From Nitrospira sp. (GTDB lineage: Bacteria > Nitrospirota > Nitrospiria > Nitrospirales > Nitrospiraceae), in contig JAHBWR010000029.1 in NCBI GenBank assembly GCA_019636875.1, forward strand, positions 1 through 33,845: DNA of 33,845 nt, in the 5' to 3' direction. The translations under genes were made by a program, and so were the position numbers. Numbering within the stretch: the stretch's first letter is position 1; the number at the start of each line of letters is the position of its first letter. Below the pieces are notes generated by a model. It was not told where the DNA came from, did no database searches, and saw only the letters and a list, made by a program, of their open reading frames with translations. This document shows, in pieces, positions 10,390 to 31,054 of this stretch.

Positions 10390-10862
10390 GCAAGGGAGAC
10401 GGGAAGTGCCTGATGTACATATGGATTTTCAGGTATCCGAGAGTGTAGACGACTTCCAGATTCGACGCATAGACGTCCCGTCGTGATGCATCACGACAGG
10501 CTATCCCTTTCAGACCCTGCACTAGAGCATCATTTGGACTTGGTCTGGCTTGGTTTGGCGTGGGTAGCCCTTCCAAACAAGATACTGGTATAAGACAAGC
10601 CAATGGTGTTAGACAGAAGGTTATGCGACCGATGGGACCCGCTTTAACATCGTCCCTGTATAGCTAGGAGAACCAGTTGTGAGCGAGCCACAGCGATCAC
10701 CTCCCCATCACAGAAAGTAATAGGCTACTCGATCCACTTCTAGTATCGCGTTCGTATCTTCAAGATGAATTTCGGAGATGGGTTATGCCGTGACACATGC
10801 TCATCTCAGCAATCGCTGCGTGTGTCCGACTGATAAATTGTTACGGAGGAGGTTGCATTAAC
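10390..10862. other. intergenic region between divergent shc and the CopD-cytochrome gene
   Basis: No gene is supported here. A possible extended -10 on the plus strand (TGGTATAAG, 10586-10594) could serve the plus-strand gene but lacks a good -35. A strong SD, GGAGGAGGT, occupies 10845-10853. A GT-rich stretch (about 10538-10566, repeated CTTGG/TTTGG units) has no clear role. Confidence 0.4.
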
Positions 10863-12488
10863 ATGACAATGGCATCTTCACCACCTAGTGCGGTCCATCC
10901 CACTCTTGCCATCCTCTTGGTTGTGGGAATATTCACCTTTCTAGCGGCAGTCTTTGCCGTAACCGGCAAACGTCCAACCAAGCAGACAACATGGCTGGGG
11001 ATTGGAACTCTCAAATGGATCTCTGCACTAGGACTTGTGGTGTTAGCCGCCGTGTTGATCACAGGATTGAACGCGGCACATCCCTTGATCGATAAGAACT
11101 ATGCGGCCGTATTCGTCACAACCTCCGGCTGGTTGCTCGTTGCAAAACTGACGATTACCTGTCTCATCCTGGCCATTGCATTGCGAATCCATTTTGTTAC
11201 GTTGCCGGCCATTGTCAACGATCCGGAATCGGCGATAACTGCGAAGCGCAGCCTCCGCCGATGGGTTGTCGTCGAAGGGATTCTTGCGCCTCCGCTCCTA
11301 TGGGTAGGACACATGGTGGCAAACGAGCACCCGCCAAATCACGCTGTCATCTACACCTGGCCATATCCCTTCCGCTTCTCCGTCATGAACACGTGGGGTA
11401 TGGCCATGCTGGACGCCGTGATCGGCGTATGGATTGCGATTACTCTGCTCATCGTAGCAGGAGCCTTCACATTGCGTGCTCTAATGCAGGGCGGACGATC
11501 AAGCTGGCGGTTTGGCATCCCGACCGTGCTGGTGCTGTTGGCCCTCGTCGTTGGGGCATACGCCCTGTCCATTAAGGCCTATCCAGAAACCTACCGTGAT
11601 ACCCCAGTCCCGTTTAGGTCGGAATCCGTCGCTCACGCCATGACCATCTTTGCCGAGAACTGTGTCCCCTGCCACGGACACCAAGCCAAAGGGGACGGCA
11701 TTTTGTCCAAAACCTTACCGAAAAAACCGATCGATTTACTCACGGAGCCTCACGCGACGATGCATACCCCAGGAGATTTTTTCCACTGGCTCACCAACGG
11801 CGTTCCCGGAACGGGCATGCCTGCATGGGGTGAAAAATTTTCTGACAAAGAACGCTGGGACCTCGTCAATCTCATCCATGCCATTAACCGAGGCTATCAA
11901 GCGCGTATTATGAATACTCGGATTCTCCCCAACCAACCATTTCTTGCACCTCCAGGCTTCTCCTATACCACCCATGACGGAACCACCGGCAGGTTGAAAG
12001 ACTTCCGTGGAGAAAAAGCCGTCCTGCTGGTCCTGTTTTCATGGCCGGACTCGCGCGAACGGCTCGATCAACTCAGGCTCGCCTACCCGGCGTTACGAGA
12101 CCACAAGGCCGAGGTATTAGCCGTACCCCTAACGGAGCTCACTTCGCAGCAGATCGCCGATATTGGGAAGGACATCCCTTTCCCCGTGGTTGAAAGGGAG
12201 GCAGCTGAGATCGCCCGCACCTACTCGCTGTTCCGCAGGACGATCTCTCATCCCGACCTGATGGGGCCGGCAACCGTCCCAAAGCATATGGAGTTCCTGT
12301 TCGACCGCTTCGGATACTTGCGGGCACGGTGGATCCCTGAAACCGATGCGGCTGACTGGAACGACATCCAGTTCGTGACTCAACAGGTGGATCAATTGAA
12401 TCAGGAACAGGAAATCATGCCTCCACCTCCCGACTACTTGCAGGAGTCAGGACATGATATGCACATGATGGGCGGAATGAAGATGTAA
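10863..12488 (+). CDS. CopD-like membrane domain / cytochrome c / redoxin-like fusion protein
   Basis: This is a 541-residue, three-part protein. Residues 12-240 carry about six hydrophobic helices with conserved histidines (VGHMVANEHPPNH), resembling CopD-type copper membrane proteins. Residues 250-345 form a monohaem cytochrome c domain (CVPCH at 267-271, probable axial Met319 in PGTGMPAWG). Residues 365-490 resemble a thioredoxin/AhpC fold (DGTTGRLKDFRGEKAVLLVL), but the usual Cys motif reads SWPDSRE, so no redox cysteines. The tail ends HDMHMMGGMKM, a likely copper-binding sequence. The start was moved to the ATG at 10863, 9 nt after a perfect GGAGGAGGT, rather than the in-frame upstream start. 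Function is inferred: a membrane copper or electron-transfer protein. rlpA follows after 24 nt. Confidence 0.75.
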   Translation: MTMASSPPSAVHPTLAILLVVGIFTFLAAVFAVTGKRPTKQTTWLGIGTLKWISALGLVVLAAVLITGLNAAHPLIDKNYAAVFVTTSGWLLVAKLTITCLILAIALRIHFVTLPAIVNDPESAITAKRSLRRWVVVEGILAPPLLWVGHMVANEHPPNHAVIYTWPYPFRFSVMNTWGMAMLDAVIGVWIAITLLIVAGAFTLRALMQGGRSSWRFGIPTVLVLLALVVGAYALSIKAYPETYRDTPVPFRSESVAHAMTIFAENCVPCHGHQAKGDGILSKTLPKKPIDLLTEPHATMHTPGDFFHWLTNGVPGTGMPAWGEKFSDKERWDLVNLIHAINRGYQARIMNTRILPNQPFLAPPGFSYTTHDGTTGRLKDFRGEKAVLLVLFSWPDSRERLDQLRLAYPALRDHKAEVLAVPLTELTSQQIADIGKDIPFPVVEREAAEIARTYSLFRRTISHPDLMGPATVPKHMEFLFDRFGYLRARWIPETDAADWNDIQFVTQQVDQLNQEQEIMPPPPDYLQESGHDMHMMGGMKM

Positions 12489-18385: not shown

Positions 18386-18690
18386 CAGAATTGGCTGTGA
18401 TCTGGTCCATCACCCTATATGGCACGGCCTTTGGGATCGACAGAGGTGCAGTGACATAGATACCAGTTCAGTAGAATTTTCCTCCTTTCAGTGACAACCA
18501 AACTCATGAATCCATTTTCTGCGCTCGGTCTCTAAGAGGATGGGAGGCAGCATGATATTCCAGAGTAACTCGTAAGTATGAACATCGTAGGATTTGGAGC
18601 CGGATGATTCAGAGGGTCGATGGAAGCCGTTATCGAGATAGTCGCAGGTACGGTTGGCGGATACGGTCGTCTGAGGGGAAAGGAGCGGTC
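18386..18690. other. divergent intergenic region ispH / tetraheme cytochrome
   Basis: No gene is supported. A TTGGCT about 19 nt before TATATG (around 18392-18422, plus strand) is a poor promoter candidate. The stretch ends with the AAAGGAG SD of the cytochrome gene. No convincing operator or riboswitch was seen. Confidence 0.3.
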
Positions 18691-20094
18691 ATGAATCTAT
18701 CGAAGAGAGCTGCTGGAGTGGTGATGCTGATGCTGGTCGGAATGCTGGCCTCCCCGAAGCTGCTGCATGCAAATGACGAGTCTCGGGCCAAAGAGCTGAT
18801 CCAACAGACCTGTGTGCAATGCCATCGGCTGGAAGGGAAAGCTGAATCGAGATTTAAGCTTCACGCGCCAGACTTGATCTGGGCCGGTAGCAAATATCAA
18901 CGGCCTTGGCTCATTCGTTGGCTCACCGGCAAAGAAGCCCCACTGTATGCGAAGGGGTATCTATGGGACATGACGAGCGTCCCGAGGCAACACCCAAAAG
19001 TGACGGATGCTGAAGCGAACGCAATCGCGGATTATTTTGCCGAACACAATAAAGACCCGCGTGTGACTGTGGGTGCGTTCGACGTTTCCAAAGTGACGAA
19101 GTTCGATGTCACGTTTGGAGCAGCGGCCTATAAGGCTCATGCCTGCCTCGGCTGCCATACGATCGAGGAGAACGGAAAGCTCATCGGTGGCCCTCAGAGT
19201 GCCGCGCTACAGAACGCCGGGCAACGGTACAACATGGACTGGCTGTACCGGTTTGGGCTGAATCCACAGGACTTCACCGTCCACAATGGAGAATTTCTGG
19301 CGGATGCTACGGATGCGCAATTGCGGGCGGTGATCGGGTTCCTTGCCGTGCAAGGGGTTCACGACTTCACCTACTACGAGCCCTGGACGAGTCCGGAGTT
19401 CGCTAACGCGAGCGTGGATCGAGGCAAGACCCTGTACAAGGAATACTGCGCTCAGTGCCATGGGTTCACCGGCAAGGGTGACGGCCCAGCTGCTTCAGGC
19501 CTGGAGCCCAAGCCCGCCATCCACGCGAATATCCCCTTCGAGAAACTTCCCATGGACTATCTCTATAACGTGATCAATCATGGCGGCCCAGCCGTCGGCA
19601 AATCGCCGAACATGCCCTACTGGGGACTGACCATTGGTCAACAGGGTGTGGCCGATGTCATTACCTATCTCAAGGTGACCTTCAAGGGGATCCCGGACGT
19701 CGCGGCGGCAGCCGGGGGAACTGAGGGGAGTGCTTGCGTTCAACCGCGCAAGACGGCTAAAGCACCGGCAGACTTCCTCAGCAGAACGAATCCGCTTCCG
19801 TCGTCATCCGGTTCTATCAAGGCAGGAAAGGAGTTGTTCCTGAAAGGCGCGCAGCCGGTCGCCTGCGTCATGTGTCACGGCGAGCTGGGAGATGGAAAGG
19901 GATTGATGGGCGCGGCCTTTATCCCACCGCCGCGGAATTTTACCTGTGGCGCCATGATGCGAGACCTACCCGACGGGCAGCTATTCTGGATCATCAAGAA
20001 CGGATCGCCAGGGACCGGGATGATGGCGTTTCAAGGCCTACCAGACGAGCAAGTCTGGCAACTGATTCACTATATCCGGAGTCTTGAGAAGTGA
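18691..20094 (+). CDS. periplasmic tetraheme cytochrome c
   Basis: The 467-residue exported protein has four class-I-like cytochrome c modules, with CVQCH (41-45), CLGCH (152-156), CAQCH (253-257) and CVMCH (392-396). A signal peptide (KRAAGVVMLMLVGMLA, cleavage near LHA-ND) sends it to the periplasm. Likely axial methionines lie in segments such as KSPNMPYWG and GTGMMAFQG. The ATG at 18691 follows AAAGGAG and begins the signal peptide; the upstream in-frame start lacks both. Role inferred: electron shuttle between a quinol or nitrogen enzyme and an oxidase. The two cupredoxin-like proteins downstream on the same strand may be its partners. No named family beyond cytochrome c was recognised. 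Confidence 0.9.
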   Translation: MNLSKRAAGVVMLMLVGMLASPKLLHANDESRAKELIQQTCVQCHRLEGKAESRFKLHAPDLIWAGSKYQRPWLIRWLTGKEAPLYAKGYLWDMTSVPRQHPKVTDAEANAIADYFAEHNKDPRVTVGAFDVSKVTKFDVTFGAAAYKAHACLGCHTIEENGKLIGGPQSAALQNAGQRYNMDWLYRFGLNPQDFTVHNGEFLADATDAQLRAVIGFLAVQGVHDFTYYEPWTSPEFANASVDRGKTLYKEYCAQCHGFTGKGDGPAASGLEPKPAIHANIPFEKLPMDYLYNVINHGGPAVGKSPNMPYWGLTIGQQGVADVITYLKVTFKGIPDVAAAAGGTEGSACVQPRKTAKAPADFLSRTNPLPSSSGSIKAGKELFLKGAQPVACVMCHGELGDGKGLMGAAFIPPPRNFTCGAMMRDLPDGQLFWIIKNGSPGTGMMAFQGLPDEQVWQLIHYIRSLEK

Positions 20095-20298
20095 GGCGTG
20101 ATGCATCGGACCTGTGCAGCGAAACATCGCATGCGCATGGAGTAATCAACGAACTGCCGGGGCATCCTGAGCAGAAAGAGGAACTGAATCGACTGGGAGG
20201 AGGTGATGGGCCACGTCAGTCGCACGAGCCCGAGAGCTGACTTGAGGACCGAGTGGACGAGCAATATACCTGTTCAACACTATTACGAGGAGGTCAGA

Positions 20299-20793
20299 AT
20301 GAGTACCCACCGATTCGGAACTGTTCTATCAGCCATTCCGTTCGCCGTCGCAACGTTAGCGGCCGTAGGTGCTGTCCCCGGCACCACCTATGCACAGATT
20401 AAGGGGATGGAGGCGCCGCCCTCCAAGATAGAGATCACCATTAAGGATCGACAGCACGGCTATGAAACCGTCGGTATTACGATGCCATCGCAAGACACGA
20501 TCATCGTTGTCCGAAACCAGGACTCCGTCACGCATGGGTTGGCGTCGACCTTGTTCAAAGACATCCCTGTGAAGGTGGAAGGAGGGACTGAGGTTCGCGC
20601 AAAAAAATTCAAATCGTTTCATCTCGATGCGGGAAAGACGATGACGCTCCGGTTCTCCACCGCACCCACAAACTTTGATTCGCTCACCGGTGGCGCCGAA
20701 AGCGTGCACCATGCCCTGTGGTGCGACATCCATCCGGAGGTGAAGGGTGAGATATTTGTCATTGAAACCCGTGGGGATATCGGAGGTGGATGA
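20299..20793 (+). CDS. exported cupredoxin-like protein (first copy)
   Basis: The 164-residue product has a signal peptide (core IPFAVATLAAVGAV, cleavage after TYA-Q) and a cupredoxin-like domain. Possible copper ligands are His79 (SVTHGLAS), Cys142 and His145 (HHALWCDIHPEVKG). The Met expected about five residues after the last His is missing, so the site would not be a classical blue copper centre. The ATG at 20299 follows GAGGAGGT. A second strong SD (GGGAGGAGG) precedes an in-frame GTG/ATG at 20203/20206, but that start would bury the signal peptide. Located about 200 nt after the tetraheme cytochrome. Function is inferred as copper binding or electron transfer. Confidence 0.78.
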   Translation: MSTHRFGTVLSAIPFAVATLAAVGAVPGTTYAQIKGMEAPPSKIEITIKDRQHGYETVGITMPSQDTIIVVRNQDSVTHGLASTLFKDIPVKVEGGTEVRAKKFKSFHLDAGKTMTLRFSTAPTNFDSLTGGAESVHHALWCDIHPEVKGEIFVIETRGDIGGG

Positions 20794-29750: not shown

Positions 29751-30497
29751 CTACTGGCCGAGATACCAACCGATCCCATATCGTTCCAAGAAACTCGTCA
29801 CCATCGTGAGTGAATTCGCGTAGATCATCACGCCGACGAGGATCAACATCACCCCGCTCACCGTTGATACTCCCCACAGATAGGCGCGCACTTCTTTGAA
29901 ATAGGCGAGAAATCGATCCACTCCCAACGCCGTCAGGAAGAGCGGCAAGCCCAAGCCGAGCGAGTAAAAGGTCAACAGCACGACCCCGTTGAGAAGTGAA
30001 TCGGTGGTACCCGCATAGAGAAGAATGGATCCCAGCACCGGTCCGACGCAGGGTGTCCATCCCGCAGCAAAGGCTACTCCGATCAAGAATGACCCCAGGT
30101 ATCCAGCCGGTCTGTTACGGAACTGATACCGATGTTCCATCTTCAGGAACGTGAGATTCAGAATCCCAAGGAGATACAGGCCGAACACGATGATCAAAAT
30201 GCCTCCGATTCGCCGAATGAGGTCCTGATACGTAATTAAGAGCTGCCCCAAAAAGCTCGCTGATGCTCCAAAGGCGATGAAGACCGACGAAAATCCCGCG
30301 ATGAACAGCAGGGAGTTCACGACAATCGCCTTCCTGAATTTTATGCGCTCAGACGCGTCGGTGAGCTGTTCGACCGAAAGCCCTGTGATGTACGAGATAT
30401 AACTTGGCACCAACGGCAGCACACATGGAGAAACGAATGAGAGCAGCCCCGCGGAAAATGCAGCAATCAGAGAGATCTGTGGGATGGATTGTGTCAT
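29751..30497 (-). CDS. ccdA: CcdA-family thiol-disulfide transmembrane transporter
   Basis: CcdA passes electrons from cytoplasmic thioredoxin across the inner membrane to periplasmic thiol reductants used in cytochrome c maturation. The 248-residue product has six membrane segments with the two redox cysteines Cys25 (FVSPCVLPLVPSY) and Cys150 (AAGWTPCVGPVLGSIL), one in each repeat, as in the short DsbD-beta type. It follows tlpA by 2 nt, so the pair is one reducing unit. This fits the many CXXCH cytochromes in the window. Confidence 0.94.
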   Translation of the reverse strand: MTQSIPQISLIAAFSAGLLSFVSPCVLPLVPSYISYITGLSVEQLTDASERIKFRKAIVVNSLLFIAGFSSVFIAFGASASFLGQLLITYQDLIRRIGGILIIVFGLYLLGILNLTFLKMEHRYQFRNRPAGYLGSFLIGVAFAAGWTPCVGPVLGSILLYAGTTDSLLNGVVLLTFYSLGLGLPLFLTALGVDRFLAYFKEVRAYLWGVSTVSGVMLILVGVMIYANSLTMVTSFLERYGIGWYLGQ

Positions 30498-30499
30498 CG

Positions 30500-31054
30500 C
30501 TATGATTTCATCAGCTCCTGTATCAATTCACGGGCTTCAGGTGACGCCCAATCGCGAGCGCCAAAGATTTTCTGCCGCACAACCCCTTGGCGGTCAAGCA
30601 TGAAGGTGATCGGCAATGTCCGCGCTCCATACGCCAACCCTGTGCGGTACTCCGAGTCATGGAGAATGGGAAAGGTCAATCCCAGTCGCTCTTGAAACGG
30701 CCCTGTCACAGCCGGACCCTGTACATCGGTTGACACGGCGAGAATTTCAAATTCCCGTCGTGGAAACGTTTGATATAGCTGTTCCATGGCCGGCATCTCG
30801 ATGCGACAGGGCCCACACCAGGTTGCCCAGAAGTTCAGGAGAACGACTTTGCCTCTGAATTGTGACAGGCTCCTCACTTTTCCGGTGAGGTCGCGCAGAG
30901 TAAAGTTGGGTGCTTCGTCACCGACTTGAACCACACCCCGTTCAAGCGCAGATCGTTTCCCAGACTGGGCTGGCTCCGCCCCAGCGAAAGGCCCCAGGAC
31001 GATCCCACCAGCAACCACAAGTGCTAAGAACGGTGCAGCGAGATGATGTCCCAT
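30500..31054 (-). CDS. TlpA/ResA-like periplasmic thiol-disulfide oxidoreductase
   Basis: The 184-residue product has a signal or anchor sequence (LALVVAGGIVLGPFAGA) and a thioredoxin-like domain of the TlpA/ResA family, with NFWATWCGPC (Cys80, Cys83) and the later RTLPITFMLDRQG with cis-Pro. It probably takes electrons from CcdA and keeps the CXXCH cysteines of apocytochromes reduced. No SD is visible before the ATG. A 15-bp palindrome lies 23 nt upstream and a promoter about 100 nt upstream. Naming as ResA or CcmG-like would need a tree. Confidence 0.9.
   Translation of the reverse strand: MGHHLAAPFLALVVAGGIVLGPFAGAEPAQSGKRSALERGVVQVGDEAPNFTLRDLTGKVRSLSQFRGKVVLLNFWATWCGPCRIEMPAMEQLYQTFPRREFEILAVSTDVQGPAVTGPFQERLGLTFPILHDSEYRTGLAYGARTLPITFMLDRQGVVRQKIFGARDWASPEARELIQELMKS

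Follow-up and report, generated by a model that had tools for sequence, protein, structure and literature searches.

Free-standing short form of the CopD-cytochrome c-redoxin fusion of copper monooxygenase operons in a comammox-type Nitrospira genome

Described CopD proteins and the three-domain fusion

The route by which copper reaches the ammonia and methane monooxygenases, and its oxidation state, are unsettled, and copper transport by CopD itself is a proposal from genetics rather than from transport assays. No active isolated ammonia monooxygenase (AMO) has so far been obtained (PMC6189053), and copper supply has been reported to separate comammox Nitrospira from ammonia-oxidizing bacteria (AOB) (PMC13374858). 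The amo clusters of comammox Nitrospira and beta-AOB contain a copC-copD pair (PMC4863621, PMC6189053, PMC12903955, PMC13374858). The second gene of this pair is named copD in published cluster descriptions (PMC4863621, PMC12903955, PMC13374858, PMC10472526), and proteomics has detected CopD in N. europaea and N. multiformis (PMC5960693). Copper supply through the CopC-CopD-YtkA fusion YcnJ of B. subtilis requires copper-binding residues in its CopC part as well as in its CopD part (PMC13344008); whether Cu(II) undergoes reduction as it passes through CopD, and at which point, is an open question in the work on YcnJ (PMC12362106).

The window analyzed here is a stretch of 33,845 nt from a comammox-type Nitrospira genome, which encodes AmoA and AmoB on another contig. 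One of its genes (10863..12488, +; 541 aa) encodes a CopD-cytochrome c-pseudo-redoxin fusion, which we refer to as a short form. This gene is almost certainly a free-standing, N-terminally shortened paralog of the three-domain CopD of copper monooxygenase operons (i.e., the amo operons of beta-AOB and comammox Nitrospira, with a distant homolog in the pmo operons of alpha-methanotrophs). It does not directly follow copC in an amo or pmo cluster and was therefore filed as a paralog rather than as an operon member. Like YcnJ and YebZ, its product belongs to the CopD membrane family. CopD is fused to other domains in the short form, as it is fused to extracytoplasmic copper domains in YcnJ; however, YebZ has neither cytochrome c nor redoxin, and none is described for YcnJ. 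An alignment with E. coli YebZ indicates that the short form retains an equivalent of YebZ His154 (His12; 10896..10898, +) but, unlike YebZ, lacks an equivalent of His135 as well as four helices. The amo-cluster copD gene was known already. The added domains and the detached short form are new with respect to the literature searched, which gave no account of the cytochrome and redoxin domains of the amo-cluster CopD and no description of the short form; few subscription papers were covered, and an earlier description is possible.

Domains of the fusion and its cysteine-less redoxin

The fusion gene has its own Shine-Dalgarno-like GGAGGAGG (10845..10852, +; from the sequence), which lies 10 nt 5' of the ATG; the stretch holding it is common to the window and the short relatives L002 and L003. 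An earlier note on this DNA had described the gene as a fusion of CopD-like, cytochrome c, and redoxin parts, and all three were recovered by Pfam at scores exceeding the curated cut-offs. The membrane half (residues 1 to 240; 10863..11582, +) contains approximately six hydrophobic helices, as judged from hydropathy, the helices of a structure model, and alignment with YebZ and with the long form of the fusion (see below). Given the low confidence of the full-length model (pTM, 0.43), the domains could not be placed, and only the helix positions were taken from it. The PF05425 (CopD) match covers residues 49 to 142 (11007..11288, +; E = 2.2e-11; 44.5 bits versus a gathering score of 32.1). The N-terminal half is thus CopD-like as previously suggested, although it is incomplete, with its six or so helices compared with approximately ten in the amo-cluster form.

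The cytochrome c domain (residues 258 to 339; 11634..11879, +; PF13442, E = 4e-10; PF00034, E = 1.4e-7) contains a single CVPCH motif (residues 267 to 271; 11661-11675, +). Residues C267, C270, H271, and M319 of this predicted class I c-type cytochrome are invariant in 26 aligned sequences. The protein ends in the Met-His tail HDMHMMGGMKM (12453..12485, +), which had been pointed out before and is indeed present at the C terminus; its end (i.e., MGGMKM) is kept in the five other complete short forms.

The redoxin domain (AhpC/TSA; residues 364 to 488; 11952..12326, +) was identified by PF00578 (E = 1.5e-7) and by its predicted structure, which has a thioredoxin fold. When this structure, predicted from an alignment with 28 relatives (pLDDT, 81.8), was compared with the PDB only, the best matches were ResA (Z = 14.7) and related thiol oxidoreductases, followed by peroxiredoxins (AhpE; Z, ~13), in agreement with the fold that the earlier note had proposed for the C-terminal part. 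Among proteins of solved structure, AhpE and Bcp come closest in sequence. The lack of CXXC in the redoxin, also claimed before, was confirmed and extended: no cysteine occurs at residues 343 to 541 of the window protein or in the same domain of the 28 aligned relatives, and all 29 sequences are without a peroxidatic or CXXC cysteine. The AhpE cysteine region aligns with WP[DEQ]S, in which Ser397 is invariant across the fusion family, and the window protein carries FSWPDS (residues 392 to 397; 12036..12053, +) in this redox-cysteine region of AhpE and ResA (alignment). An invariant H475-x-E477 (12285..12293, +; alignment) is a possible metal site.

The AhpE/Bcp peroxiredoxins and the ResA/TlpA proteins share the fold and a weak sequence similarity with this domain, but they have redox cysteines, and without these their thiol chemistry is impossible for the redoxin of the fusion. 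With zero cysteines in 29 aligned sequences, an active peroxiredoxin or thiol reductase was ruled out. A cysteine loss peculiar to the window copy was also ruled out because the loss holds for every aligned ammonia-oxidizer relative. Elsewhere in the window (29751-31054, -), a CcdA-like gene (PF02683) is paired with a TlpA/ResA-like gene in which CXXC is present; this appears to be an ordinary thiol system and forms a contrast to the cysteine-less redoxin.

Long and short forms in ammonia oxidizers and methanotrophs

Using the family alignment to scan genome contigs of GTDB, we found the fusion at 80 loci, from Nitrospira, Nitrosomonas, Nitrosovibrio, and other Nitrosomonadaceae. The long form among them corresponds to the amo-cluster CopD. 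The earlier note had called for such a search and had taken the three domains to be normally separate, which was not upheld: in extended copper monooxygenase operons, CopD usually takes the form of this CopD-cytochrome c-redoxin fusion, and the three-domain architecture was seen in all 26 aligned full-length proteins, including that of the window. In the Nitrosovibrio family, the redoxin profile matches 110 of 120 genomes, often in two copies. The presence of the fusion in isolates (i.e., Nitrosovibrio sp. Nv4, Nitrosomonas communis Nm44, and N. mobilis) and in dozens of metagenome-assembled genomes rules out an assembly artifact.

The long form (~670 aa) has approximately ten hydrophobic helices before the cytochrome, a full CopD half, and a tail ending in DHVH. 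In nearly all long-form Nitrospira loci, the gene order is AmoE-AmoD(-AmoD)-CopC-fusion, with AmoC-AmoA-AmoB adjoining or in front; several loci of AOB have the same AmoE-AmoD-CopC-fusion order with AmoCAB. This order agrees with the cluster descriptions cited above. Other copies in AOB adjoin only CopC, and a few have no amo-cluster neighbor. The genes called AmoE and AmoD here match, by reading of the sequence, the Cx7MxH and Cx8MH patterns of PMC6189053. An AmoD-type protein of comammox Nitrospira (L021:5968-6552, +) had no Pfam-A match at E 0.001.

The amo-cluster CopD and the short form of the window have the same three domains in identical order and are 41 to 51% identical along the chain. 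They have in common the motifs WPYPFRFS, PETYxxTPVPF, FSWPxS (at the cysteine position), and DRxGYxRARW, together with the invariant HxE. Unlike the amo-cluster CopD, the window form lies outside the amo cluster, carries the Met-His tail instead of DHVH, and is without some 130 to 150 N-terminal residues that include four helices and His143. These residues are gone in all short forms (~540 aa), the CopD half of which corresponds to the last six helices of the long form. The equivalents of YebZ His135 and His154 are both present in nearly all long forms, and the short forms keep that of His154 alone.

Short forms were found at seven loci (the window and L063 to L068). In a quick tree, they were monophyletic (support, 100) and placed on the Nitrospira side, beside a larger long-form group (support, 92). 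The contigs of L064 and L083 (CAADGK01) are titled uncultured Nitrosospira, but both of their fusion genes fall within Nitrospira in the grouping; judging by the isolate label CMX, this may be a misnamed comammox bin.

Within the genus Nitrospira, 24 of the 35 genomes (including that of the window) had a strong match to the fusion, and one more had a fragment. Neither form is carried by three AMO-negative, 99%-complete genomes (G022, G025, and G030), each of which encodes one CopD-domain protein of ~160 to 170 aa. Eight fusion-bearing genomes have no AmoA match; amoC is present in all four of these that were tested, and contigs often stop just past the fusion, where amoC starts. Three genomes (G018, G020, and G029) have AmoA, and we found in them neither the fusion nor a full amoE-amoD block; the block therefore seems to be missing whole, either by assembly or truly. 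In the 99%-complete G018 (L053), amoCAB is present and no AmoD-type gene was found, as if the block were missing as a unit. AmoE-like genes also occur outside amo clusters: one in the genome of the window (L193:31-693, -) adjoins an RND efflux gene, and one in G029 (L187) adjoins an orphan amoC fragment.

In an evenly drawn set of 398 Pseudomonadota genomes, AmoC/PmoC occurred in three (G059, G176, and G261), and these same three, and no others, had the fusion (E <= 1e-20). An exception in context is G698 (Beijerinckiaceae family), in which pmo genes are absent within ~5 kb of the copC-fusion pair (14 kb read around the pair). The fusion of this genome (L216:7004-9034, +) is cysteine-less and ends in KDHDH.

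In the methanotroph G261, the gene order is pmoCAB-pmoD-copC, followed by a gene for a 650-aa CopD-cytochrome c-redoxin-like protein and by PCuAC. Relatives of this protein were found in eleven further genomes of its family, and the order pmoD-copC-fusion-PCuAC was seen in all 10 loci read, with that of G261 included. The alpha-methanotroph pmo CopD (e.g., L200:3767-5719, -; also L202 to L211) shares the three-part fusion with the window form, lies between copC and PCuAC, and has only ~30 to 32% identity with the amo forms (across most of its length for the G261 protein). Its C-terminal domain is below the Pfam cut-off, yet a DRSGYxRARF block is shared. Unlike the amo forms, it keeps two invariant redoxin cysteines (in FA[RH]C and xCP), and it ends in an HxH tail (HSH or HQH). 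FARC or FAHC occupies the place that FSWPDS has in the window protein. The cysteines were either lost by the ammonia oxidizers or gained on the methanotroph side.

Proposed copper reduction and hand-over and the alternative functions

On the whole, the gene is probably best explained as a shortened CopD paralog for membrane-anchored copper reduction and hand-over serving AMO. A role in membrane copper handling, with the redoxin as a scaffold, had been proposed in the earlier note, and membrane copper handling with a redoxin devoid of thiol chemistry fits the context of copC, amoD/amoE, and amoCAB or of pmoD, copC, and PCuAC. In the mechanism that we infer, including its topology, copper binding, copper reduction, and target, CopC would hand Cu(II) to the membrane half of the full-length protein. 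The electron that produces Cu(I) could come from the fused cytochrome c, and the redoxin fold and the putatively metal-binding HxH tail would help pass Cu(I) toward AmoD/AmoE and the monooxygenase. The short form would have retained the membrane-anchored periplasmic cytochrome c and pseudo-redoxin and acquired a Met-His tail that would suit Cu(I). Since four helices and one CopD histidine of the pair are lost, it is unlikely to import copper; the odds are about even that it reduces copper in the periplasm and carries Cu(I) for AMO.

A broader proposal, which we put forward tentatively, is that copper monooxygenase operons encode a single-chain copper importer-reductase-chaperone, with a two-cysteine redoxin in methanotrophs and a cysteine-free, copper-passing one in ammonia oxidizers, and that the reducing and passing part was detached as a Met-tailed protein in some comammox Nitrospira. 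The conserved cytochrome c and pseudo-redoxin inside the operon CopD constitute a concrete, testable candidate for the reduction and hand-over step, and the detached short form represents a natural experiment in which the soluble part was kept and much of the transporter was dropped.

Selection on the short form bears on this explanation and on its strongest alternative. In pairs of short forms, the whole-gene dN/dS ratio was 0.11 to 0.22; by part, it was ~0.01 to 0.16 for the cytochrome, ~0.09 to 0.12 for the redoxin, and 0.18 to 0.33 for the membrane half. The soluble part is therefore the most strictly maintained. The electron donor of AMO is unsettled, and the protein may serve electron transfer, with AMO, the quinone pool, or the nitrite/hydroxylamine pathway as the redox partner of the cytochrome c, the CopD half serving only as an anchor, and the redoxin serving as a docking scaffold. 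The conservation of CXXCH and Met319, a cytochrome that is the slowest-changing part in most pairs, and a truncated, faster-evolving CopD half are consistent with such a role. However, nearly all aligned full-length forms have a complete CopD half in which both YebZ-type histidines are retained, their genes are usually preceded by copC, and the C-terminal tails are rich in metal ligands. We therefore consider this function unlikely, although it is the most serious competitor.

Copper reduction and hand-over for AMO must also be weighed against the setting of the short form, which in the window lies between a squalene-hopene cyclase-like gene and an RlpA-like lipoprotein gene (PF03330; 12513..13298, +) located 24 nt 3' of the fusion. 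At least four genomes carry the short form apart from amo genes and next to an RlpA-like gene; both RlpA-like and SMC genes adjoin it in the window, L063, L065, and L066. The RlpA-like gene begins 9 to 31 nt 3' of the short form in the window, L022, and L023. This spacing and the Met-His tail would suit a copper-stress or envelope protein (i.e., a periplasmic copper sink or sensor that is partnered with the RlpA-like gene and acts apart from AMO loading). Such a role is nevertheless improbable, as the short form occurs only in genomes with amo genes. All seven short-form genomes have them (AmoA in G000, G013, G034, and G070; amoC in G003 and G002; an AmoE/AmoD block in G069), and the long form co-occurs with the short form in G003, G013, G034, and G070. 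Furthermore, no RlpA match was found beside the copies of L067 and L068, and the L067 copy is divergent to an adjoining orphan amoC.

The earlier note had also suggested that the protein might supply an oxidase with copper, as Sco proteins do. The fusion and the Sco1/SenC chaperones are both membrane-anchored, with a thioredoxin fold and a copper context; in addition, the family has copper-type neighbors, the tail is of the Met-His type, and BsSco appears at rank 48 in the Foldseek list of the redoxin model. However, membership in the Sco/SenC family was ruled out by the absence of the CXXXC copper ligands and of any other cysteine from the domain, the nearest relatives in sequence and fold being AhpE/Bcp and ResA. 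In the surroundings of the copies that were read, no oxidase gene was noticed, and the constant genomic partner is the ammonia or methane monooxygenase. A Sco-like copper donor to a terminal oxidase is thus very improbable, and the suggestion was abandoned. Still less credible is the reading that the gene is a nonfunctional, decaying copy of the amo-cluster CopD: the lost helices and histidine, the faster-changing membrane half, and the few genomes involved would agree with decay, but the reading frames are open in all complete copies, the gene has its own ribosome site and conserved synteny, and the dN/dS ratio (~0.1 for the redoxin) together with the conserved MGGMKM tail rules out a pseudogene.

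Another cytochrome c gene of the window (18604-20793, +) encodes several heme domains. The small exported protein encoded 3' of it, which has no Pfam match, looks cupredoxin-like by eye.
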